The notes: a model not told the origin generated them from the letters alone. A stretch of 42,041 nt of DNA from a virus (IMGVR_UViG_3300044633_001398:1-42041); one strand, 5' to 3'; shown: positions 5,080 through 40,890, counted from the first letter of the stretch. Made by a program: numbers and translations.

Positions 5080-6779
5080 TCCCCCAAACCCCCAACCCCG
5101 TCATCCCTCCCATCGAAGTCGAAGGCCGCCGCGCCGATGGCAGCTTCGTCGTCCGCTACCGAGGCCAAAAGCTCGCCGCCACCGAGGCCCAACTTCTCGC
5201 CATCCACCGCGAGCGCGAGGAGCAGATCGCCCGCATGGTCGAAGACCCTTGGCGCTACGGCTGGCTGAACCCCGCCTGGCAGCGAGCCGACAGCGCCTAC
5301 GACAGCCTCCGCGAGAAATTCCCCAAAGGCGTCACCGAACTCCTGATCCTCGGCGGCAACCGCTCCGGCAAGTCCCGCTACTTCGCTCGCCGCGCCATGC
5401 AACACCTCGTCGAAAAGCCCGGCGCGAAAGTCTGGTGCCTCCAATCCACCGAAGCCGCCAGCATCCAAAACCAGCAGCCCTACTTGTGGGAGTATTTGCC
5501 GAAAGAATGGAAACCCAGCGCCAGCGGCAAATTCAAAAAAGGTGCCGTCGCCAACATCACCTATTCGCAGAAAGGCGGCTTCACCGAAAACTCCTTCGTC
5601 CTGCCGAATGGCTCCCAATGCTGGTTCAAGTTCTACTCCATGGATGTCAGCTCCATCGAAGGCGCGGAGTTAAATTTCTGTTGGGCCGACGAACTTGTCA
5701 CCCCCGATTGGCTCGAAGCCCTGCGCTTCCGCCTGCTCACCCGCGACGGCGAACTCGGCATCGGCTTCACGCCGGTCGAAGGCTACACAACGACGGTCAA
5801 AGAATACCTCGATGGCGCGAAGACTTTAGAGGAATGCCCCGCCCCGCTCCTTCCCCGCTACCGCGACGGCCACCTCCTCGGCGTCGAGAGCGTTCCCCGC
5901 ATCCAGCAATGCACCAGAGAAAAAGCCCGCGTCGTTTATTTCCACACCTCCGACAATCCTTACGGAAACCCCGAGGCCATGGAGACCGAGCTGCGCGGCA
6001 GCAACCGCGAGCGAATCTTGATGCGAGCCTACGGCGTCCCCACCAAAGCGCGGATGTCCATGTTCCCGAAATTCCGCGAGAATGTTCATGTCGTCCCTCA
6101 CGACAAAGTTCCCACAGCGGGAACCGTCTTCCACTTCGTCGATCCCGGCGAAGGGAAAACTTGGGCCATGTTGTGGATTCGCTTCACCCCCGATGGCCGG
6201 TGCTGGATTTACCGCGAGTTCCCCGACCAGCTCGACTACATCGAGGGCGTCGGCTACCCCGGCGAGTGGGCCGAAGCCGATGGCAAGCTGCAAGACGGAC
6301 GCCCCGGCCCCGCGCAAAAAGCCTGCGCCGGGTTTGGCTTCGAGGACTACAAGCGCCTCATCGAAGCCGCCGAGAAAGCCGACTACGCCGAGCCCGCCGA
6401 GCGTTGGATGGATAGCCGCTATGGCAACACGCCGACCATGACACACGAAGGCGTGCGCACCCTCATCGAGCAATGCAGCGAGCGCATCGGCCTCGACTTC
6501 CGCGCCACCAGCGGCCAAGCCATCGTCGAAGGCGTCACCCTCATCAACGATTGGCTCGCCTACAACGACGAAGCCCCCGTCGATGCCCTCAACTCCCCCC
6601 GCCTCTACATCAGCGAGCGTTGCCAAAACCTCATCTACGCCCTCAAGACCTGGACCGGCAGCGACGGCAAACGCGGTGCCACGAAAGATTGGATCGACCT
6701 CCTCCGCTACATCACCCTCTCCGGCGTCGAATACGAAGACCCCGCCTCCCTCCGCACCCGAGGAGGCGGGTGTTACTAA
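5076..6779 (+). CDS. terL: terminase large subunit
   Basis: A 567-aa DNA packaging motor. The ATPase domain has Walker A GGNRSGKS (residues 93-100), adenine-side and coupling segments around VWCLQSTEA, and Walker B ending in FCWADE (near residue 206). The C-terminal nuclease domain starts near HFVDPGEGK, with an acidic cluster and a final KDWIDLLRY containing the last acidic residue. I chose ATG 5076, which overlaps the stop of the previous gene, over the in-frame start 60 bases upstream. Length and motif order are those of podovirus-type large terminases. The portal, scaffold and capsid genes follow. The presumed small terminase is not adjacent (40883-41896). Confidence 0.93.
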   Translation: MIPQTPNPVIPPIEVEGRRADGSFVVRYRGQKLAATEAQLLAIHREREEQIARMVEDPWRYGWLNPAWQRADSAYDSLREKFPKGVTELLILGGNRSGKSRYFARRAMQHLVEKPGAKVWCLQSTEAASIQNQQPYLWEYLPKEWKPSASGKFKKGAVANITYSQKGGFTENSFVLPNGSQCWFKFYSMDVSSIEGAELNFCWADELVTPDWLEALRFRLLTRDGELGIGFTPVEGYTTTVKEYLDGAKTLEECPAPLLPRYRDGHLLGVESVPRIQQCTREKARVVYFHTSDNPYGNPEAMETELRGSNRERILMRAYGVPTKARMSMFPKFRENVHVVPHDKVPTAGTVFHFVDPGEGKTWAMLWIRFTPDGRCWIYREFPDQLDYIEGVGYPGEWAEADGKLQDGRPGPAQKACAGFGFEDYKRLIEAAEKADYAEPAERWMDSRYGNTPTMTHEGVRTLIEQCSERIGLDFRATSGQAIVEGVTLINDWLAYNDEAPVDALNSPRLYISERCQNLIYALKTWTGSDGKRGATKDWIDLLRYITLSGVEYEDPASLRTRGGGCY

Positions 6780-25378: not shown

Positions 25379-25741
25379 ATGCTCCCTTGGGAACGCGCCC
25401 GAAACTGGCATGACGAACACACCACCGAACCATTCGAGTCCCTCCTCGCCTGGCACATGGCCCACGGCCTCGTTTTCAACACCCCGCAAGTCTTCCTCCT
25501 CGCCCACGAAATCCACTACTCCCCCGATACCAACACCATGACCTACGACCTCCCCCCCAACGCCTGGTTCGTCGAACTCGCCGCATCGGTCGGCCACGCG
25601 AACCCCGTCCGCGAATTTCTCCGCGTCGCCACGCACCCCCAAGAGTGGGCCATCTGGCACCGCCGCAATTCTTTTCAGCCCCACGCCTACCCATGGGCCA
25701 AACTCGCCCGCCGCGTCGGCCTTGAAAGGAGGATAGCGTAA
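25379..25741 (+). CDS. hypothetical virion-region protein, 120 aa
   Basis: A His- and Trp-rich protein (MLPWERARNWHDEHTTEPFE; LLAWHMAHGLVFNTPQVFLL). It is soluble with no signal peptide. The first base follows the preceding stop, and its TAA overlaps the next ATG (25741). It recalls small proteins preceding internal virion proteins in podoviruses. I know no function for it. Confidence 0.55.
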   Translation: MLPWERARNWHDEHTTEPFESLLAWHMAHGLVFNTPQVFLLAHEIHYSPDTNTMTYDLPPNAWFVELAASVGHANPVREFLRVATHPQEWAIWHRRNSFQPHAYPWAKLARRVGLERRIA

Positions 25742-27039
25742 TGGGCGGCGGATCAGCACAAAAACCCCAGCAGCAAGCCGCTCCTCCCCAAGCGCAGCCT
25801 ATCGACTACGGCAAGCTCATGGCAGAATCCAGCAAAGCCGCCAAAGAGCAATACCGCGACCAACTCAACGCGCAGATCGAAGCCTATCCAAAACTCGAAA
25901 GGCTTCAACTTGGAACGGTATCCAACTTCGCTTCAAACCTCTCTGGCGAAGGCGGCACTCTCTACGAGAATAAATGGGTGCCCGGTGAAACTATTACCAC
26001 CGGCAAAGGTAAAAATAAAAAAACCGTAACAGGTGAAGGCCGCTGGGAAAAAGTCGCTGTAGGAGAGGCTACGCCAAACCTCTATACCAAACGCGCCACC
26101 GACCAGCTCATCGCCGCCGAAGATCAGGTCAACCAACTCGGCCGCATCGGCGACTACACCGAGCAACTTGGCTACGCCGCCGCCCGCGACCTCGAAGGCA
26201 CAGACATCGAGCGCGAGCTTCAACGCCAAGCCACCAGCGAACTCGCCCTCGGCCGCGCCCTCAGCCCCGAGCAGGAGCGCCAAGCCACCCAGCAAGCCCG
26301 CGCCGGAATGGCCGCCCGTGGCCTCGGCGTCAGCAACTCCGCCCTCGCCGCAGAAGTCCTCAACCGCGACGCCTACGCTTCCCAACGCGAGGCCGACCGC
26401 CGCAACTTCGCTGGGTCCACCAACCAAATGCTCGTAGGCAACCGCCAGAACCGCATCGGGATGGTCGGCAACATCCTCGGCCAATCCGCCAACACCAGGA
26501 TGAACCAAGCCAACCTCCGCAGCAGCCTCGCCGGAGCCAACATTACAATCGACCCCTACGCCCGCGCCATGAACCCTGCCCTTGGCATGGGAGCCAGCAC
26601 CCTCGGCCAATCCGGCCAAATGATTGGCAACACCTACAACAACGCCACGCAGATGGCCGGGAATGTCGCCGGGGTCAACGCCTCCATGCTCGATTCCCGC
26701 TGGAACACGGTGCAAAACAACAACGCCGCCCTCCAAAGCGCCTACATGGGAGCCAAGGCCAGCGACAATGCCGCTAACATGGGCCTCCAAGGAGCGGCCA
26801 TGGGAGCCAGCGCCGTCATCGGAGCCGCCGCCGCTGCCTGCTGGATCGCCCGCGCCGCCTTCGGCACGGCCACCACCCGGTGGAAGGACTACCGCCGCGC
26901 CATGCTCCGCCATGCCAGCGACCGCACCATCCGACTCTACTGCCAGCACGGCCAAGCCATCGCCGCCGCAATCACCACCCCCCTCCGCCGCCTCGCCGCC
27001 CGCCTCACACTCCGCACACTTCAATGGTCCTGGAACTAA
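25741..27039 (+). CDS. internal virion protein with C-terminal Cys-Trp domain
   Basis: A 432-aa protein. The N-terminus is disordered (MGGGSAQKPQQQAAPPQAQP). Residues about 120-350 are long helices rich in Ala, Gln and Asn (coiled coil, virion-internal type). An Ala/Gly-rich hydrophobic segment (about 348-366) is followed by CWIARAAFG (Cys367-Trp368) and a basic helical tail to 432. The CW[IV]AR...YG block recurs at the C-terminus of many phage fibre or internal proteins. The last 16 bases overlap the start of the ycaO gene, so translation is coupled. It is a candidate substrate for the YcaO-TfuA enzymes, by position only. Confidence 0.65.
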   Translation: MGGGSAQKPQQQAAPPQAQPIDYGKLMAESSKAAKEQYRDQLNAQIEAYPKLERLQLGTVSNFASNLSGEGGTLYENKWVPGETITTGKGKNKKTVTGEGRWEKVAVGEATPNLYTKRATDQLIAAEDQVNQLGRIGDYTEQLGYAAARDLEGTDIERELQRQATSELALGRALSPEQERQATQQARAGMAARGLGVSNSALAAEVLNRDAYASQREADRRNFAGSTNQMLVGNRQNRIGMVGNILGQSANTRMNQANLRSSLAGANITIDPYARAMNPALGMGASTLGQSGQMIGNTYNNATQMAGNVAGVNASMLDSRWNTVQNNNAALQSAYMGAKASDNAANMGLQGAAMGASAVIGAAAAACWIARAAFGTATTRWKDYRRAMLRHASDRTIRLYCQHGQAIAAAITTPLRRLAARLTLRTLQWSWN

Positions 27040-28196
27040 CAGAGAAAATCCGGCTCGAAGGAGCCCAACGCGCCTGCACGCCAGAAGAAACTCTGGAGCG
27101 CATGCGCCCGCATTTCCACACCGCAGGCATTACCCGCCTCGCCGAGATCACCGGGCTCGACCGCATCGGTATCTGTGTGGCTCAGTGTATGCGGCCCGAC
27201 GCCATCGTTCTGGCCGTGGATTCCGGCAAAGGAGCCACCATCGAAGCCGCCAAATGCTCGGCCATGATGGAGGGCTTCGAGCGCCATGTCGGTGAGACCA
27301 GCCGCCCGCCCCACACCCTGGCCTCTGCCGCGCAACTCGGCGACCAAGCCGAGACCCGCCTGCCCATGATCAAAGGCGCGGTCTTCCACCCCTATGCCGT
27401 CATGCCCTGGACCGAGGTTTTGGGTCTGCGCAGTGGAGCGCCCCGCATGGTGCCCACCGACGCCGTGCGACTCATCGCCCGCCCCGATCCCGCTCCGCTG
27501 ACCAGCCTGCCCTTTGCCTACACCAGCAACGGCCTTTCCTCCGGCAATACCTACGCCGAGGCCGTCGCCGGGGGGCTCTACGAGTGCATAGAGCGCGACT
27601 GCACCGGCATCGCCCAGCGGCGCTTGCAGGATTTTCCACGCGTCGATCTCGACACCATCACCGACCCCACCGTCGCCCGCCTCGTCCGCACCCTGCGCGA
27701 GGCCGATGTCACCCCGGTCCTCATCGATGTCACCAGCGACATCGGCGTGCCCGCCTACATTTGCTATCTCATCGACTGCGACAAGGGCTTCGGAGTCAAC
27801 AAAGGCTACGCCGCCCACCTTGACCCCGCCATCGCTCAAGCCCGCGCCATCACCGAGACCATCCAAGCCCGCGCCGTCTGGATCGCCGGGAGCCGTGACG
27901 ATTTTTTCCATCACCTCCATGAGAAGGTCAAATCCACCGACTCCGCTGCGGTCCTCGCCCGCCTCTACAAGTCCGCCACCATCAGCGCCAACGCCCATCC
28001 CGACCGCTCCGGAGAGACCTTTGAAGCCGACATCGACACCCTCCTCGATCTCCTCGATGCCGCCGGTATTCCCGAGCCGCTGGTTTACCAATTTACCCAC
28101 CCCTATCCCTGCTCCGTCGTGCGAGTCATCGTTCCGACCCTCGAAGGCTACACCTTCGACTACGCCCAACCTGGCCCCCGCGCTCTTTCCAAATGA
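27024..28196 (+). CDS. ycaO: YcaO-domain protein (predicted backbone thioamide synthetase)
   Basis: A 390-aa YcaO enzyme, which uses ATP to activate a peptide amide oxygen. Family motifs are present in order: SGKGATIEAAKCSAMMEGFE (67-86), SNGLSSGNTYAEAVAGGLYE (168-187) continuing to CIERDC, QARAITETIQARAVWIAGSR (272-291) followed by DD, and the C-terminal PGPRA (383-387). It lacks the PxPxP end of azoline-forming YcaOs and has the end seen in TfuA-linked members. I chose ATG 27024, overlapping the previous gene by 16 bases; an in-frame extension to 26880 lies inside that gene. Its stop overlaps the ThiS-like start. With TfuA and ThiS adjacent, thioamidation is the most likely reaction. The substrate is unknown. 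Confidence 0.93.
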   Translation: MVLELTEKIRLEGAQRACTPEETLERMRPHFHTAGITRLAEITGLDRIGICVAQCMRPDAIVLAVDSGKGATIEAAKCSAMMEGFERHVGETSRPPHTLASAAQLGDQAETRLPMIKGAVFHPYAVMPWTEVLGLRSGAPRMVPTDAVRLIARPDPAPLTSLPFAYTSNGLSSGNTYAEAVAGGLYECIERDCTGIAQRRLQDFPRVDLDTITDPTVARLVRTLREADVTPVLIDVTSDIGVPAYICYLIDCDKGFGVNKGYAAHLDPAIAQARAITETIQARAVWIAGSRDDFFHHLHEKVKSTDSAAVLARLYKSATISANAHPDRSGETFEADIDTLLDLLDAAGIPEPLVYQFTHPYPCSVVRVIVPTLEGYTFDYAQPGPRALSK

Positions 28197-28459
28197 CACT
28201 CAAAGTTGCTGACTTCCACACCCGCTTCACCGACGGCCTGCGCGAAATCATTTGCCCTGCGAAATCCATGGAAGAGCTCATGGATCACTTGGCAAAAATT
28301 TTCCCAGCCTACCACGCCGCCGTTTACTCCGACGGCAAAATCCCACGCTTTTACATAGTTTTCCGCAACGACGACGACATCCGCTACCTCGATGGCATGA
28401 AGACCTCCCTCTCCGAAAACGATACCGTCACCATCATGACCGCATTCGCCGGAGGCTAA
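28193..28459 (+). CDS. ThiS/MoaD-like sulfur-carrier protein
   Basis: An 88-aa ubiquitin-fold protein. The C-terminal half reads DDDIRYLDGMKTSLSENDTV then TIMTAFAGG. It closely follows the MoaD/ThiS pattern (xDIRxLxGxxTxLxxxDxVxIxxxxxGG), ending exactly at Gly87-Gly88. Family members are adenylated on the last Gly by a ThiF/MoeB-type enzyme and carry sulfur as a thiocarboxylate. Here the protein is flanked by ycaO (4-base overlap) and tfuA (3-base gap), so it is the likely sulfur donor. No activating enzyme is encoded in the window. A role in host thiamine or molybdopterin synthesis is less likely in this context. Confidence 0.9.
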   Translation: MTLKVADFHTRFTDGLREIICPAKSMEELMDHLAKIFPAYHAAVYSDGKIPRFYIVFRNDDDIRYLDGMKTSLSENDTVTIMTAFAGG

Positions 28460-28462
28460 CCC

Positions 28463-29482
28463 ATGAAAATCTTTTTCGGCCCCACACGCCCCAGCAACAT
28501 CCCCCCCGATGCCGACCTCCGGCCCCCGGCCCAGCAAGGCGACATCGCCGCCGCCGCGCTCGAAGGGCCAGACACCCTCATCCTCCTCGACGGATTTTTC
28601 CACCAAAGTCTCGCGCCCTGGCACAAAGAAATCCTTTTCGCCATCGACCAAGGCTGCCGCGTCATTGGCGCAGGCAGCCTCGGAGCCCTCCGCGCCGTCG
28701 AGTGCGCCCGCTACGGAGCCGAGCCCGTCGGCCTCATCGCCGAATGGTATGCCGATGGCACCTGCACCGACGACGCCGATGTCGCTGTCGCCCACGGCCC
28801 CGCCAGCGAGGACTACAAAAGCTACACCATCCCACTCGTCAACATCCGCGCCACGCTCGACGCCCTCTCCGCCGATGGGTTCCTCCCCACCGCCGAAGCC
28901 CGCCAGCACCTCGCCACCATCTCCCGCATCTACTACCCCGAGCGCACCTGGTCCGCCATCGAGTCCGTGCTCCCGGCATTGGATTTCCAAGCCCTCAAGC
29001 ACAACCTCATCGACCAAAAAGCCAAAGACGCCGCCGCCGCCATCCGTCACGCCCAGCAGGCCCCGCCGCCCGCCACCCGCGATCTCCCCCGGCACATCCA
29101 CACCGCCTATTTCACCGCCCTCCTAGCCAACGACCTGCCGACCAGCAACGGCCAACGACAGCACCACCTCGCCAGCGAGACCGACCGCACCCTCGCCACC
29201 GACCGCCACCTCGTCGCCGAACTCGCCCAACTCCTCGGCATCGTCACCACCCCCGAGGACATCTTCGCCGCCAGCACCCGCATGTGGCACCGACTCGGCA
29301 TCACCGACTCGGAAACCGCAAAAGCCTGGCTCTCCGAACACGCCTGGACCGACCAGCAATGGTTCGCCCACGCCCAGCGCGAAGCCCTCCGCCAAGCCGC
29401 CCGCGATTGGCACAACGCCACCGGAGCCTGCCTCGACACCGTCCCCCTCACCCTCGCCCACAACCTCCTCAACCCCGCCTAA
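28463..29482 (+). CDS. tfuA: TfuA-like protein (thiocarboxylate hydrolase for YcaO)
   Basis: A 339-aa protein. The first about 165 residues are a TfuA core: FFGPTRP (4-10), GDIAAAALEGPD (26-37), LLDGFF (41-46), APWHKEILFAID (51-62), GAGSLGALRAVE (69-80), EWYADG (94-99), PLVNIRATLDAL (124-135) and YYPERTW (157-163). The methanogen homologue hydrolyses ThiS thiocarboxylate with a Ser-Lys pair and helps YcaO bind its substrate; Ser72 and Lys55 are candidates here. The C-terminal 170 residues are a helical extension of unknown role. It is the third gene of the cassette, and the next virion gene begins four bases after its stop. Confidence 0.92.
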   Translation: MKIFFGPTRPSNIPPDADLRPPAQQGDIAAAALEGPDTLILLDGFFHQSLAPWHKEILFAIDQGCRVIGAGSLGALRAVECARYGAEPVGLIAEWYADGTCTDDADVAVAHGPASEDYKSYTIPLVNIRATLDALSADGFLPTAEARQHLATISRIYYPERTWSAIESVLPALDFQALKHNLIDQKAKDAAAAIRHAQQAPPPATRDLPRHIHTAYFTALLANDLPTSNGQRQHHLASETDRTLATDRHLVAELAQLLGIVTTPEDIFAASTRMWHRLGITDSETAKAWLSEHAWTDQQWFAHAQREALRQAARDWHNATGACLDTVPLTLAHNLLNPA

Positions 29483-29485
29483 CCC

Positions 29486-30088
29486 ATGCAATACGCCCCC
29501 GCCGTCACCGACCGCTCCGCCGAGATTTACGCCCAAGGAGCCAACAACGCCACGAACATCCGAGCCCAAGGACAAGCCAACTTCCAAAACTCCCTCACCT
29601 CCTCGTTCAATACAGCCATGGGTATGGTAACTAAGCGCATCGAGAAGAACGAAACCGACAACGCTAAGATGGAGCAATCCATGGCATCGGGCCAAGCCAT
29701 GATGAGCCTTTCCGATAACTACGGAGAGCAGGGTCAGAATTTCAAAATGTCTCTTGGCAAAGCTCTCGAAGACACCAAAGGCAACCCAGATAAAATGTCT
29801 GGAGCCGTCATGGCCCACGCCGCTGAGTTTGAAAACATGCAGCAAATAGCCCGCATGAACGCCCAAGTCGAAGGCTACAAAGACCTCGCCGACTACAAAT
29901 CCGCCAACACTCCTGCTGCCGCGAACACTCAACCCAAGCTCGATGCCAACTACGGTCGTCAATTTTACCAAGTGTTCAGACAGCAAGGCAAAATGACCCA
30001 TGAGCAAGCTTTGGCCGAAATGGATAAAGCCGGGCTGTCGTGGGCTAAACAATACATCGAAAAGCAAGAAAACCCATTCTTCCAGTAA
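29486..30088 (+). CDS. putative internal virion protein, 200 aa
   Basis: A helical protein rich in Ala, Gln, Asn and Met (MQYAPAVTDRSAEIYAQGAN; FQNSLTSSFNTAMGMVTKRI). The C-terminal about 60 residues contain QFYQVFRQQGKMTHEQALAE and end PFFQ. Composition and location between tfuA and the giant ejection protein point to a virion-internal protein. It starts after the sequence TAACCC, as tfuA does. It is a second position-based candidate for modification. Confidence 0.6.
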   Translation: MQYAPAVTDRSAEIYAQGANNATNIRAQGQANFQNSLTSSFNTAMGMVTKRIEKNETDNAKMEQSMASGQAMMSLSDNYGEQGQNFKMSLGKALEDTKGNPDKMSGAVMAHAAEFENMQQIARMNAQVEGYKDLADYKSANTPAAANTQPKLDANYGRQFYQVFRQQGKMTHEQALAEMDKAGLSWAKQYIEKQENPFFQ

Positions 30089-30090
30089 CC

Positions 30091-33000
30091 ATGAGCGGCT
30101 ACCAAGCAGCCCTCGATTACCTGGCAAAACTCAACGGGCCTACAAACCAATCCCCCGATCCTCTCGCCGCGCCCACCCCGGCCCAAGGCGCACAGATCAT
30201 CGACTTTGAAACGCCGCTCCCGGAAATGGGAGGCGAGCCCGATTTCATTTCGATACCCGAGGACTCCGAAGAAACCCTCACCGCCACCGCATACGAACCC
30301 GCTCCCGCGCCCTCGCAGCCCATGGGCGACGGCTACACCGCCGCACTCGCCTACCTAGAACGCCAGCAAGCCGACCAGCAAGCCCAAGCCGCCACCCAGC
30401 AAGCCGTCGCCGAGGCCACCACACCCGACCAAAACCTCCCCGTCCTCAAGCCCGAACTCGCCGATGCCCTCGGAGTCCTCGACTACCGCGACCCCCAAGA
30501 AGGCGCACGCCGTTCCCAAGCCGCCGCCCTCGGCGAAATCCTCGGTCTCCCCGAATACGAGAAAGTCCAACTTGGAGCCGCCCCCGTGAATGACGACGGC
30601 ACCGTCACCATCCGCCGCGCCCAAGCCGTCTCTCCCGAAGCCAATGCCGCCGCTGCCAAGCAGCTTGAAAATCTGCGCATCATGGCCGCTGGCGAGATGC
30701 TCGTCGAAGATTCTCCCAAAGAAGTCGGCACCCTCCAAGGCATCGCCAACGCCGCGCAGAATGCTTTCGACTCCGCCCGCCAAGCCCTCATGGCCACCGA
30801 TGGCCTCGATGAGAACGACGCCGCGCAACTCGCCCGCATCGAATACAACAAAGCCGCCCGCCGCGTCGCCCCAGGCTACGCCGCCTACCAGCAAGCCGAA
30901 GGTTGGGATGCCGTAAAAGCCTTTGCCAAAAATCCCTTCGAGGTCTCGGCAAATATCATCACCGAAGGACTCGCCGGAAGCTGGCCCGCCCTCGCAAGCG
31001 GCCTCGCCACCGGAGCCACTACCGCCGCCGTGGCCGGAGCCGCCGGATCGGTCGTGCCCGGTGCTGGCAATGTCGTCGGTGCAGGCGGAGGCTTCACCGC
31101 AGGCATGGTCGGAGGCACCGCCGCCGGTTCCTTTGCCACAGAATACGGCAGCAAAATCCTCGAAGAATTGCAGACCGCCGGGATGAATCCCAAAAACCCC
31201 GAGAGCATCGCCAAATTCTTCAGCAACGAAACGCTCATGGCCGAAGCCAAGGATGCCGCCTTCAAGCGAGGCGTTCCCGTCGCCGCCTTCGACGCCCTCT
31301 CCGCAGGCATAGCCGGGCGAGTCGGCTCCGTCTTCCGCGCCGCCGCCAAGACCCCTGTCCGCCTCGCCGCGACAGAAGGAGTCATCCAAGGAGGGCTCGG
31401 AGCAGGAGGCGAAATCAGCGGTTCCCTCGCCGCTGGTGATCCAGTAAACCCCAAAGCCGTCTTCGCAGAAGTCCTCGGCGAAGTCGGCCCCGCCGCCATC
31501 GAGATCGCCGCCGGACGCGCCGCCTCCGCCAGCCAGCCCGCCCCCATGGGAACGCCGTCGTCCCCGACGGCCCCTCCGTCATCCGCTCCCATCGCCCAGC
31601 CCGCCCCCGCCGAAGTCCCCCAAAACTTCACCCCTATTTCCTCCCCCGCGCCCGCCGCCACAGGCCCCGCGCCCCGCACCCTCGGCCAAGTCCGCGCCCC
31701 GCAGATCGCCATCGACCCAGCCGCCCTCGATGAAACCTTCGGCCCCGCCACCGGAACTCCCCCTGCCGCCTCTGCTCCCGCTGCAAGCGCACCAACAGCG
31801 CCTGAACCGACAGGCTCACCCGAAATGATCACCGGGGAGGGGGCCGGTTTATCTTCTCCACAAAATCCAATTACAGTTTCCACGGATTGGATTTCCTCAT
31901 TCACTGAAAAGCCTCAAGCGCAACAAGCAGCCCGTGAATGGTGGAGAACAAACCGTCCGGAACCAGTTGAGGTATCTCATCCAAAATTTGAAACTCCTAT
32001 CGTCGTATCCTGGCAAGGAATCAAGCATGCCACACGCAAAAGCGCAGGAATTGAGGAACTTGCTACCGTTCCTTTTATTCAAGAAGCTATTGCAAATTCT
32101 GAATGGGTAGGCCAAGCGCCAGATAAACGACAACGGAATACAATTAAATCCGTTCATGAATTAAAGGCCCCGATTCTATTGAATAACGAGCCTAAAGATC
32201 TTCGGATCGTTGTGCGCCAAACAACCTCAGGCACTCTTTTTTACGATCATTCTTATATCAAAACGACAGAACCCGCCGTTACATCTGAGGAGCCTAGTAT
32301 AAAGGACTCTGGTCAGCAGGCGGCGGGCTCTGCTGAAAACGATAGCCAATCTACTCCTGCTGTCAAACCTTCCGATTTGCAAAACACTGAATCGGAATTT
32401 GAATCCACCATGCGCAATGCTATGCGTCGAAACAATGAAGCTGGATTTGTTGACATTCAAGCAATTCAAGATTTCGGCCAAAGCCTTTATGAATCGGGCA
32501 AAGGTTTCGCTCAATGGTCAGGAGAAATGGTCCGCAAGTTCGGGGAAGCGATCCGAGATGTTTTAGAAACTATCTGGGAATATGTCTCCGGCGGGCAATA
32601 CCTCCCCCAAGCCCGCGAGCGTGGCAGCGTAAACATTTCTCCTGGCACTGGACCAAAGCCCCGCAAGTTCGGCCAATCCCTCCAAGCCGCCCCCGGCGTT
32701 GCGCCCGAAGTCAAATCCCGCCTCACCTCGCTCGACTACGATCCTGTCTCGAACGCCCAAACCCTCGCCAATGCCCGAGCCCGCATCGACTCGGCAGGTA
32801 GCCTCGACAAAGCCTATGACGATTTAATGGACAGGCGTGACATCGGAGGCTGGCAGCCCACCGCCGAGGATTACGCCACCGGCATGGAACTCATGGCACA
32901 ATTCCAAAACCGAGGAATCCACTACAAAGCCGCCTCCATCGCCAACATGATGGCCGCCCGCGCCACCGACCAAGGCCGCGCCATCCAAGCCCTCTCGATG

Positions 33001-35634
33001 ATCGGCCGCCTCGGGCCGCAAGGCATCGAGCTATTCGCTCAAAGCCAACTCCAAGCCGCCGCCACCAAGCCCGCTAAGACGGATAAGCAGAAGGCCGATA
33101 TCCAAGCCAAGATCACCGAGGCCGGGCAGTTGCAATCCGAAGTGGACAAGCTCCGCCGCGACTCCACCACCGCCGCCATCGTCGGCAATAAAGACCTCAT
33201 CAAATCCTCGCTCCCCGCCGGAGTCGATGCCGTGCAGGTCAACATCGCCATCCGCGAAGCGATCCTCGGCGCACCCACGCCGCTTGCCGCCCAAGCCGCG
33301 ACCTCCTCCATCCTCACCGGCCAAGGGCTCTCCGACAAAGGAGCCGCCCGCATCTCCGGCAGCATCGTCCGCGACTTACTCAAGACCACGCAGGACACCC
33401 GCGCCAAAGTCCTCCAAGACCTCCTCGCCACAGCCGATTCCGACCGACGCCTGGATAAATCCAAGCTCGGCTCCCTCATCCGCCTCAACCGCGAAGGCAA
33501 TCTCACCGATGCCAGCCTGCACGCAGGCATGGCTAAGATGCTCGGCATCCCGCATTGGAGCGCCGAGCACAGCGCCAAGGTCCGCCGCATCCTCGCCCAG
33601 CACGAGAAAGCCACCGACCCCCGCATCAAGCTCGTCAAAGCCGCTGAAGCCCTCGATGTCGTTTACCGCGACTTCATGCCGCCGGGCTTCCTCGACAAAG
33701 TGGACACCATCCAGACCATCGCCATGCTGCTGAATCCCAAAACGGTGATCCGAAATGTGGTTGGCAACGCTCTCATGGCCGGGGCCGACCTCGCCGCCGA
33801 TACTGTCGCCGTGCCGATGGATGCTCTGGTTTCCCTTGGCACCGGCGAGCGCACCCGCACCGGCCTTTCACTCGGTGAACGCCTCATGGGCCTCGGAGCC
33901 GGGGTAGGGGACATCAAAGCAGGCTACGACTTCGCCCGCTCCGAAGGCCGTGGCCGCATTGGAAGCATCGCCGAGGGCGTCGATACCCTCGTCCGCCTTG
34001 GCCGCCTGCAATCCTCGGGCAAATACAACTCCTCCGACATCTCCGCCCTCAGCGGCCCCACCTTTACCGCCCCGGTCCTCCGCCAACTGGAATCCACTCT
34101 TGGCCTTGTCCTCTCCATCACCGACCGAGGTTTCTACGAATCCGCCTTCCGCGCCAGCCTCGACACCCGCATGAAAGCTGCCGCCGCAAATGGCAACCCT
34201 ATGCTCGCGCCCGATACCGACATGGTGACAGCCGCCCGCATGGATGCTGGCCGCGCAATATACCAAGACCCCAATGTCGCCAGCCGCACGCTCAGCATGT
34301 TCCGCCGCGGTTTCAATTTCAATCAACGCTGGGGCATCGGCTCCCTCCTAATGAAATTCACCCAAGTCCCCGGCTCGATCCTCACCCGCGCCGTGGAATT
34401 TTCCCCGCTTGGATTCATCAACACCGCCTACCAAAGCCTCGCGCCAATGCTCTCCAACTCCCGCGAGTTCGACCAGCAAGCCTTCACCGACTCCTTCTCC
34501 CGCGCCCTCGTCGGCACCACCGGCCTCGTCGCCACCGGCTACTGGCTCGCCCACCTCGGCATCATCTCCGCTGGCAACGACGCCAAAGATGAAGACAAGC
34601 GAAACCTCAACCGCGCCATGGGCTGGGGCACCTACAAACTCAATGTCGATGCCCTCAAACGCGCCCTCATGACCGGCAACTTCTGGACCCCTCAGAAACA
34701 GCAACGCGATGACATGGTGATCGGCTACGATTGGGCACAGCCCCTCTCCATCGGCGTTGCCATGGGTGCCTACGCACGCGAGAACCAAGACGCCGTGCGC
34801 CAAGACATCCTATCAGGCAAAAAGCAGGACATCTTTTCCAATGGTGTCAACTGGCTCGCCTATGCAGGCGGAGCGGTCAGCGGCGCAATGAACTCCCTTG
34901 TCGAGCAACCCCTGCTTTCAGGTATCAATCAATTCGCCCGCGAAGTTAGCTATGATAATTTCATCGGGGCTCTCCTCAAAACCGCCGCCGACGCCCCCGG
35001 CACCTTCATCCCCACCGCCGCAAGGCAATGGATGCAACTCACCGACAACGCCGCCCGCGAAACCCGCGACAGCTCCCCGGCTCGCCAATACATCAACGAA
35101 CTCAAAGCCCAACTCCCCGGCCAAAGCCAAACCCTCCCGCAGAAATACGACATCACCGGGCAGCCCATCGAGCGATGGGCCAAGGACAGCAACACGCTCT
35201 TCAATGTCCTCTTCAATCCCTCGATGGTCAGCTACATCAAACGCAGCCCCGCACTCACCGAAATGAGTCAGGTTTACAAATACACCGCCGAAACCGGAGC
35301 CGTTCCAAACCCCGTCAAACCGGAATTTAAACTTGAGGGAGTTACCGTCCGCCTCACCTCCGAAGAGATCAGCGCCATGCAGAAAGACATGGGCGCTCTC
35401 AGCATCGCCGCGCTGGAAAAGTTCGTCCTCTCCGATCCTCGCTACGACAAAGCCACCTGGGACGCCAAAGCCCGCGCCATGACCCGCGCCCTGGAGAAAG
35501 CCAGCACCGCCGCCAAATACCGCATCCTCTTGTCTCGCCCCGACCTCAAGACCCGCGCCAAGCAGGAATACGACGCCGCCCGCGCCAACGAAGCCGCCAC
35601 CCAAGCCGAAATGGTCGCAGCCGACGCGCCGTAG
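30091..35634 (+). CDS. giant polyvalent internal virion / ejection protein, 1847 aa
   Basis: A 1847-aa protein. Residues about 1-180 are Pro/Gln-rich linkers with a twice-used short helix (YQAALDYLAKL, YTAALAYLERQ). Residues about 280-480 include glycine/alanine-rich hydrophobic segments (GLATGATTAAVAGAAGSVVP) that could enter membranes. Residues about 480-590 are a Pro/Ala linker. Residues about 610-730 are an AT-rich-coded domain resembling an LPD3/BECR-type nuclease-associated domain. From about 860 it is a large helical region with LLNPKTVIRNVVGNALMAGA (about 1211-1230), a hallmark of large phage polyvalent proteins. Such proteins are packaged and injected with the DNA. It is the last gene of the late operon, three bases from the convergent integrase gene. 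Confidence 0.75.
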   Translation: MSGYQAALDYLAKLNGPTNQSPDPLAAPTPAQGAQIIDFETPLPEMGGEPDFISIPEDSEETLTATAYEPAPAPSQPMGDGYTAALAYLERQQADQQAQAATQQAVAEATTPDQNLPVLKPELADALGVLDYRDPQEGARRSQAAALGEILGLPEYEKVQLGAAPVNDDGTVTIRRAQAVSPEANAAAAKQLENLRIMAAGEMLVEDSPKEVGTLQGIANAAQNAFDSARQALMATDGLDENDAAQLARIEYNKAARRVAPGYAAYQQAEGWDAVKAFAKNPFEVSANIITEGLAGSWPALASGLATGATTAAVAGAAGSVVPGAGNVVGAGGGFTAGMVGGTAAGSFATEYGSKILEELQTAGMNPKNPESIAKFFSNETLMAEAKDAAFKRGVPVAAFDALSAGIAGRVGSVFRAAAKTPVRLAATEGVIQGGLGAGGEISGSLAAGDPVNPKAVFAEVLGEVGPAAIEIAAGRAASASQPAPMGTPSSPTAPPSSAPIAQPAPAEVPQNFTPISSPAPAATGPAPRTLGQVRAPQIAIDPAALDETFGPATGTPPAASAPAASAPTAPEPTGSPEMITGEGAGLSSPQNPITVSTDWISSFTEKPQAQQAAREWWRTNRPEPVEVSHPKFETPIVVSWQGIKHATRKSAGIEELATVPFIQEAIANSEWVGQAPDKRQRNTIKSVHELKAPILLNNEPKDLRIVVRQTTSGTLFYDHSYIKTTEPAVTSEEPSIKDSGQQAAGSAENDSQSTPAVKPSDLQNTESEFESTMRNAMRRNNEAGFVDIQAIQDFGQSLYESGKGFAQWSGEMVRKFGEAIRDVLETIWEYVSGGQYLPQARERGSVNISPGTGPKPRKFGQSLQAAPGVAPEVKSRLTSLDYDPVSNAQTLANARARIDSAGSLDKAYDDLMDRRDIGGWQPTAEDYATGMELMAQFQNRGIHYKAASIANMMAARATDQGRAIQALSMIGRLGPQGIELFAQSQLQAAATKPAKTDKQKADIQAKITEAGQLQSEVDKLRRDSTTAAIVGNKDLIKSSLPAGVDAVQVNIAIREAILGAPTPLAAQAATSSILTGQGLSDKGAARISGSIVRDLLKTTQDTRAKVLQDLLATADSDRRLDKSKLGSLIRLNREGNLTDASLHAGMAKMLGIPHWSAEHSAKVRRILAQHEKATDPRIKLVKAAEALDVVYRDFMPPGFLDKVDTIQTIAMLLNPKTVIRNVVGNALMAGADLAADTVAVPMDALVSLGTGERTRTGLSLGERLMGLGAGVGDIKAGYDFARSEGRGRIGSIAEGVDTLVRLGRLQSSGKYNSSDISALSGPTFTAPVLRQLESTLGLVLSITDRGFYESAFRASLDTRMKAAAANGNPMLAPDTDMVTAARMDAGRAIYQDPNVASRTLSMFRRGFNFNQRWGIGSLLMKFTQVPGSILTRAVEFSPLGFINTAYQSLAPMLSNSREFDQQAFTDSFSRALVGTTGLVATGYWLAHLGIISAGNDAKDEDKRNLNRAMGWGTYKLNVDALKRALMTGNFWTPQKQQRDDMVIGYDWAQPLSIGVAMGAYARENQDAVRQDILSGKKQDIFSNGVNWLAYAGGAVSGAMNSLVEQPLLSGINQFAREVSYDNFIGALLKTAADAPGTFIPTAARQWMQLTDNAARETRDSSPARQYINELKAQLPGQSQTLPQKYDITGQPIERWAKDSNTLFNVLFNPSMVSYIKRSPALTEMSQVYKYTAETGAVPNPVKPEFKLEGVTVRLTSEEISAMQKDMGALSIAALEKFVLSDPRYDKATWDAKARAMTRALEKASTAAKYRILLSRPDLKTRAKQEYDAARANEAATQAEMVAADAP

Positions 35635-36817: not shown

Positions 36818-36908
36818 CACTAAACCACAACCGAACCAATTTTCCACATTTAACAGAACAACCAGTGTAAAACCCTCTAAATGAACCCTCCGATCAACAA
36901 TCAGGAAG

Positions 36909-36950
36909 TGCGCCCCCCGGGACTCGAACCCGGAACCAATTGATTAAGAG
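36909..36950 (-). other. attP core: 3' half of a tRNA-Lys(CTT) gene
   Basis: On the minus strand the segment reads as the anticodon loop CTCTTAA, the 3' anticodon stem, the T arm (CCGGG, TTCGAGT, CCCGG) and the acceptor 3' end with GGGGCGCA. The bases before the loop do not pair with the anticodon stem and no 5' half is present, so it is not a complete tRNA. Tyrosine integrases of this kind recombine at the 3' part of tRNA genes, and the phage copy restores the host gene. Confidence 0.85.
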
Positions 36951-37012
36951 ACTGGCGTTCTTTATTTGAAAATGAATATCTTACCAAAACCGCCTGCCGC
37001 TTTGCATGTCGG
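36951..37012. other. attP flank without a gene
   Basis: AT-rich sequence between the tRNA-like core and the small minus-strand ORF. It may hold integrase or excisionase arm sites. I see no clear repeat. The open frame running through it on the minus strand crosses the tRNA segment and is not a gene. Confidence 0.4.
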
Positions 37013-40185: not shown

Positions 40186-40890
40186 GTGACCACTGAGGGA
40201 AACACCCCATTGACGCCGGACGCGCCGCCTTTTTTTTGTGCCGATTTTTCGGATGGGGTGAATGCCCCATTGGCAACGGAGATCGACTTGGAGGGCTTGG
40301 GGGAGTCGCGGGCCGAGGTGGCCTTCCCTCTTCGCTCGAATCGCTACATGAAGCAATTCCATGCCGCGAAGGCTGACGACAAGCGGAGCCGCCGTGGGAT
40401 TAAGCGACTGGTGAGGCCGGAGAATGCTGCCGCGCTTGCCGAGTATTTGCCGGAGCCGGGGGAATGCACCCATGCGGTGGTGCGTGGGGATTTCGTGATG
40501 GCGGAAATCATTCCGCTGCTTTTGGGGAATCGAGTTGCCGACTTGGTGGGGATTTCGACTCTGGGGATGAGCAGGGATAACGCGGTGAAGCTGGCCGAGT
40601 TGCTGGCCACGGGCAAGGTGCGCCGCCTTTTTTTGCTGGTGAGCCATTATTTTTCCCAAGTCGATAAGACGGGAACCTATCGGGAGGTGAAAGGGCTACT
40701 CGGGGATGCTGTGGTGGTGGCCCGCACTCATGCGAAGGTGATCCTGGTCTCTGCCGCGCCGTCTTTTTTTGTGGTGGAGGGATCGGCCAACCTTCGTTCG
40801 AGCGACAACATCGAGCAGTTCGCCATCTGGAATGATGAGGAGCTACTAAACTGGCATCTGGAATGGATGCAGGAGGTGCAAGGTGCCTGA
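40186..40890 (+). CDS. PLD-like domain protein, 234 aa
   Basis: The C-terminal half contains ARTHAKVILVSA (HxK, near residue 185) and VVEGSANLRSSDNIEQFAIW (about 200-219), the pattern of phospholipase-D-like HxK(x)nN motifs; a single such motif would need dimerisation. The N-terminal half includes RSNRYMKQFHAAKADDKRSR. Phage relatives lie near terminase or early genes and may act on DNA. The start is GTG 40186 with no Shine-Dalgarno sequence; internal ATGs are possible. AGGAGGT near its end serves the next gene. The catalytic assignment is tentative. Confidence 0.55.
   Translation: MTTEGNTPLTPDAPPFFCADFSDGVNAPLATEIDLEGLGESRAEVAFPLRSNRYMKQFHAAKADDKRSRRGIKRLVRPENAAALAEYLPEPGECTHAVVRGDFVMAEIIPLLLGNRVADLVGISTLGMSRDNAVKLAELLATGKVRRLFLLVSHYFSQVDKTGTYREVKGLLGDAVVVARTHAKVILVSAAPSFFVVEGSANLRSSDNIEQFAIWNDEELLNWHLEWMQEVQGA

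Follow-up and report, generated by a model that had tools for sequence, protein, structure and literature searches.

To our knowledge, protein backbone thioamides are known from a few cases only, namely McrA and ribosomal uL16. Thioamidation of McrA requires YcaO together with TfuA (PMC5589413). In E. coli, YcaO alone thioamidates uL16, recognising the folded structure of the protein, and ThiS-type carriers and TfuA have been named as the usual sulfide supply (PMC13063428).

Here we describe a YcaO–TfuA cassette in a virus record from IMG/VR (hereafter the window, that is, the whole stretch of 42,041 bases that was analysed). Profile matches over the whole record recognised a terminase, a major head protein and an integrase. 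A tRNA-Leu (CAA) at 36908-36993 adjoins the integrase gene and marks a possible attachment site. By eye, the region 40186-40890 contains an H.K...GS.N pattern that recalls phospholipase-D-like proteins, with no Pfam match at E 0.05.

A reading made from the DNA alone (the sequence-only reading) had described three adjacent, translationally packed genes (Table 1), and the frames and overlaps at 27024-29482 bear this out. The start of ycaO lies inside the 3′ end of the upstream gene (16-nt overlap, with the upstream stop at 27039), ycaO and thiS overlap by ATGA, and tfuA begins after a gap of 3 nt. The cassette is thus flanked by the overlapping 432-aa gene on one side and, 3 nt away on the other, by a virion-type gene encoding 200 aa. 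It had also been placed inside a virion operon; what stands is its position between two presumed virion genes, the term 'virion operon' itself, like the presumed virion functions of the flanking genes, reflecting gene order and weak profile matches.

Table 1. Coordinates of the cassette and the neighbouring features in the window
Feature	Position	Strand	Product	Basis
Virion-type protein upstream of ycaO ('gp14-like' by position only)	25741-27039	+	432 aa, Gln/Ala-rich	gene order
CWVAR domain of the upstream protein	26839-27039	+	residues 367-432, C-terminal ~66 residues	
ycaO	27024-28196	+	390 aa; predicted ATP-dependent, backbone-amide-activating enzyme	PF02624
thiS/moaD-like sulfur carrier	28193-28459	+	88 aa, C-terminus FAGG	PF02597
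tfuA	28463-29482	+	339 aa; predicted thiocarboxylate hydrolase and YcaO partner	PF07812
Virion-type gene after tfuA (gp15-like by position)	29486-30088	+	200 aa	
Very large virion-type protein (gp16-like by position)	30091-35634	+	1847 aa	LPD3 domain PF18798, E 2e-17

All three products matched their Pfam families above the curated cut-offs: YcaO over the full-length domain (219 bits, E 1.1e-64, residues 67-374), ThiS with 34.6 bits (E 2.8e-8) and TfuA with 124 bits (E 3.4e-36). The closest solved structures were MJ1094, a YcaO from M. jannaschii (6pe3, E 4e-24), the ThiS/MoaD protein 4n6e (E 6e-8) and the TfuA-domain protein 6xp8 (E 3e-23), which aligns to residues 17-165 of TfuA; a C-terminal extension continues past this solved core. 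The sulfur carrier in the window ends in GG and the TfuA core GA.S.GALRA is conserved. Residues invariant in 14 diverse phage YcaOs, including E83, E86, E187, E190, R191, D192, E278, Q281 and R283, are all present here, and in the alignment E83, E86, E187, E190, E278, Q281 and R283 are common to phage YcaO and MJ1094. Compared with 11 relatives, ycaO showed dN/dS values of 0.08-0.30, indicative of purifying selection. With complete genes, relatives of solved structure and low ycaO dN/dS, the cassette is real and no decayed relic. The YcaO, GG-ending carrier and TfuA named in the sequence-only reading are therefore sound, with the YcaO and TfuA domains present by profile search and the conserved residues intact. 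By analogy with characterised systems, the chemistry of the cassette would be thioamidation.

Using close and profile-based scans, we found the ycaO–tfuA pair at about 70 distinct IMG/VR phage loci, with YcaO identities of 30-99%, and TfuA directly follows YcaO in every locus where the contig continues. The sequence-only reading had named absence of the trio from related phages, together with loss-of-function changes here, as evidence that would speak against it; the pair is in fact widespread in related phages. That reading had also treated the trio as the unit, which holds for YcaO and TfuA and not for ThiS, found in 7 of 47 cassette-bearing phage records, all near the window phage, and absent from the other 40. 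ThiS is a local extra, the conserved unit being YcaO–TfuA, and those 40 relatives would need the sulfur carrier of their host.

The constant presence of TfuA beside YcaO, joined in the window by a GG-ending ThiS, corresponds to the sulfide-supply pair of thioamidation. This speaks against another YcaO reaction (an azoline on Cys, Ser or Thr, an amidine, or proteolysis) with TfuA in no more than an accessory role, which we regard as quite improbable, even though YcaOs are chemically diverse (PMC13063428), the McrA-specific NCBIfam cut-offs were not reached and an invariant Cys starts the CWVAR domain. A small RiPP product whose precursor is encoded elsewhere in the phage seems more improbable still. 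RiPP-type clusters are the assignment of most bacterial YcaO–TfuA pairs (PMC8120280), but neither an exporter or peptidase gene nor a conserved short ORF lies beside the phage pair, and the window locus has no short precursor with an exporter or peptidase nearby, the mark of thioamidated RiPP clusters; the sequence-only reading had likewise seen no export, leader-peptidase or precursor genes. A 72-aa ORF between ycaO and thiS occurs in only a few relatives (L005, at 5158-5376, L012, L038 and L046) and not in the window.

Among INPHARED phages, there was neither a YcaO–TfuA pair nor any TfuA, the only gene being one annotated as E. coli ycaO (25% identity), and prophages and contigs in a bacterial and archaeal genome set of ~85,000 species contained no YcaO relative above 44% identity. 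These searches thus yielded neither an isolate nor a host. In the YcaO tree the phage sequences fell into two groups, suggesting that the cassette had been captured twice, independently, next to one and the same gene; as a single phage clade was not rejected (p-AU 0.46), we make no claim either way.

We examined where the cassette lies in these viruses. Of 73 distinct loci, 64 have ycaO overlapping, or within 200 nt of, the 3′ end of a gene whose product terminates in the CWVAR domain; in these linked loci the domain starts with CW[VIL]AR and once with CVVAR. The linked position also recurs in the group with 30-33% YcaO identity. In cassette-less phages with CWVAR, mostly just a few nucleotides separate the CWVAR gene from the virion-type gene that follows; accordingly, the cassette fills a junction that is otherwise empty. 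The nine exceptions fall into several kinds. L375-L377 and L056 keep the position without the CWVAR domain: the protein before the cassette stops just short of it, and the rest of these records yielded no CWVAR domain. L047, L048 and L054 carry the cassette on the opposite strand, close to genes for terminase and portal, with a CWVAR protein still encoded elsewhere in the L047 record. In L385, a 12-kb fragment, portal and head genes flank the cassette, and L384 has a gap of 426 nt. Conversely, 49 of 50 tested CWVAR records contained neither YcaO nor TfuA. CWVAR is thus neither sufficient for the cassette nor, as L375-L377 illustrate, necessary for it, and the retention of the cassette in L375-L377 and L056 contradicts CWVAR as an obligatory substrate. 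An 81-95-aa protein near the CWVAR-less group was considered as a replacement substrate and rejected, being also present in the CWVAR-bearing L049 and L374.

Such a strict place beside one phage gene over deep divergence would be unexpected if the enzymes, whether made late in infection or packaged for delivery alongside the ejection proteins, modified a host protein such as a ribosomal protein or a defence factor. We consider a host target rather unlikely, while noting that E. coli YcaO acts on ribosomal uL16 (PMC13063428) and that the cassette of L047 lies outside the virion genes.

Another enzyme gene occurs at the CWVAR spot in other phages. A SET-domain protein (PF00856, E 1e-10; L016:7211-7606), a second possible protein-modifying enzyme, is encoded just before the CWVAR gene at 35 loci, duplicates included, in phages where another long N-terminal region precedes the CWVAR domain.

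The 432-aa upstream protein is encoded between a tail/virion-type gene and the gene for the 1847-aa protein, and the name gp14-like, after the T7-type ejection protein gp14, refers to this gene order. It matched no PHROG and no Pfam family of known function. Its AlphaFold2 model is mostly helical and of low confidence (pLDDT 56), with the CWVAR domain modelled as four short helices (pLDDT 77-87), and fold searches with the protein and with the domain gave no significant PDB match. Across 114-118 phage copies, the domain contains an invariant Cys, Ala-Arg, Trp, Arg, Tyr, Gly and Ala. It remotely resembles the CFI_box_CTERM family (NF041770), with which it has in common the C-aromatic-aliphatic-A...G start and the overall pattern. 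That family was weakly matched by 81 of 114 phage CWVAR copies (best E 5e-5), but the phage copies fall under its cut-off, with seven scored records reaching at most 19.9 of the required 40 bits, and the window copy gave no match. A literature search found no paper on the family. In L171 (2031-2303), CWVAR ends a protein with, by eye, a lambda-type tail-assembly-like start, and the domain may therefore join different virion proteins.

A second Cys in the domain (Y-C-x-x-G) was evaluated as the YcaO site. Of the 64 linked loci, 53 have it, as does L047, where cassette and domain are unlinked; among the matches listed, 4 of ~110 CWVAREVYG domains contain it, one of them that of L047. We rejected this candidate, as 11 linked loci have Leu or Val instead and the Cys-bearing L146, L177 and L201, possibly fragments, are without YcaO or TfuA. 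The second Cys is common in cassette-bearing phages and neither required nor exclusive. No single residue marks cassette carriers, in a comparison where the cassette-less set comes mostly from the CWVAREVYG DNA pattern (at least 120 matches), so that residues 1-9 are not comparable with the cassette-bearing set.

We compared the divergence of the upstream protein with that of YcaO in 46 cassette-bearing phages. CWVAR identity closely tracks YcaO identity (Spearman rho 0.93; partial correlation 0.90 once the remainder of the protein is controlled for). The residues ahead of the domain, up to 300 of them, track YcaO less (rho 0.61; partial 0.34), because this part is often exchanged among phages: in 73 pairs, identity is below 35% in the preceding stretch and above 80% in YcaO, with a mean of 91% in the CWVAR domain. 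In a 36-phage set, the correlation with YcaO was 0.90 for CWVAR, 0.72 for the 90 residues just before the domain and 0.70-0.75 for the N-terminal 90 residues of the product encoded next after tfuA. Physical linkage and the higher conservation of the domain may explain part of this coupled divergence. As CWVAR diverges in step with YcaO although the rest of the protein is freely swapped, the upstream protein is the best substrate candidate. This C-terminal domain, the neighbour that tells most about the cassette, had escaped the sequence-only reading.

The same values bear on the possibility that thioamidation falls on another virion protein (the gp15-like or the gp16-like one, for instance) or on the upstream protein ahead of CWVAR, with the adjacency to CWVAR reflecting operon logistics. 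The same late genes flank the cassette, and it is retained where CWVAR was lost, as this explanation would predict. Nevertheless, the start of the gp15-like protein and the segment before CWVAR track YcaO divergence less than CWVAR does, and we judge this alternative unlikely, if the most serious of those considered.

On the basis of these observations, we favour, at just short of even confidence, a phage-borne module for protein backbone thioamidation, whose most likely target is the upstream virion-type protein, probably in or near CWVAR. Since known systems thioamidate proteins, the phage pair should, by analogy, also thioamidate a protein, and its constant neighbour is the strongest candidate; because dozens of related uncultured viruses keep the enzymes beside an injection-type protein, a viral protein is probably the one modified. 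The sequence-only reading had left the choice between a virion and a host protein. Conservation of the pair beside one virion-type gene points to the former. The chemistry, the target, the site and the role of the target in the virion or in ejection are inferred. Somewhat more tentatively, several uncultured phage lineages may thioamidate the backbone of their own DNA-ejection protein within its conserved C-terminal domain.

In the proposed mechanism, a thiocarboxylated ThiS-type carrier, encoded here by the phage and in most relatives by the host, would bring the sulfur, and TfuA would free it from the carrier as sulfide. With ATP, YcaO would activate one backbone amide and exchange its oxygen for sulfur, acting on the protein encoded directly upstream and made simultaneously from the same operon. 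We speculate that the thioamide might locally stiffen this protein, or shield it from proteases, as it exits the capsid to function in the host envelope.

Literature searches, with most subscription papers outside their coverage, found no phage YcaO–TfuA system and no thioamide in a virion, in keeping with the statement of the sequence-only reading that no such phage system has been described. Among described systems, the archaeal pair that acts on McrA glycine (TIGR03266/NF033432; MJ1094, 6pe3) gave the best NCBIfam matches and resembles the phage pair in both enzymes, the conserved residues and the presumed protein target. However, the phage scores lie well under the cut-offs (191.7 bits against 365 for YcaO and TIGR03266; 133.6 against 235.2 for TfuA and NF033432), the phage has no McrA, and its pair sits in a virion-type operon. 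Bacterial YcaO–TfuA(–ThiS) pairs (Azospirillum, Sphingomonas, Streptomyces and others; mostly thioamidated RiPP-type clusters) include the closest cellular YcaOs (≤44% identity) and share the adjacency of YcaO and TfuA, but have no CWVAR-type neighbour, and the phage proteins form one or two groups of their own. In Azospirillum (L250, L251, L252, L254 and L256), genes for YcaO, TfuA and a ThiS-like protein follow one another, the closest cellular parallel to the window trio. The action of E. coli YcaO on uL16 is similar in that a folded protein is thioamidated with no adjacent precursor gene (PMC13063428), and differs in being encoded by a host housekeeping gene without TfuA or a dedicated sulfur carrier. 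The enzymes are thus of a known kind, and the phage setting and the presumed target are new. If the favoured reading is true, the upstream protein would provide the first known case of a thioamide in a virion protein, and phages would chemically rewire the backbone of a structural protein, a new role for YcaO–TfuA. With a phage version that has stayed with one virion-type gene through deep divergence, the known range of YcaO–TfuA targets would broaden.
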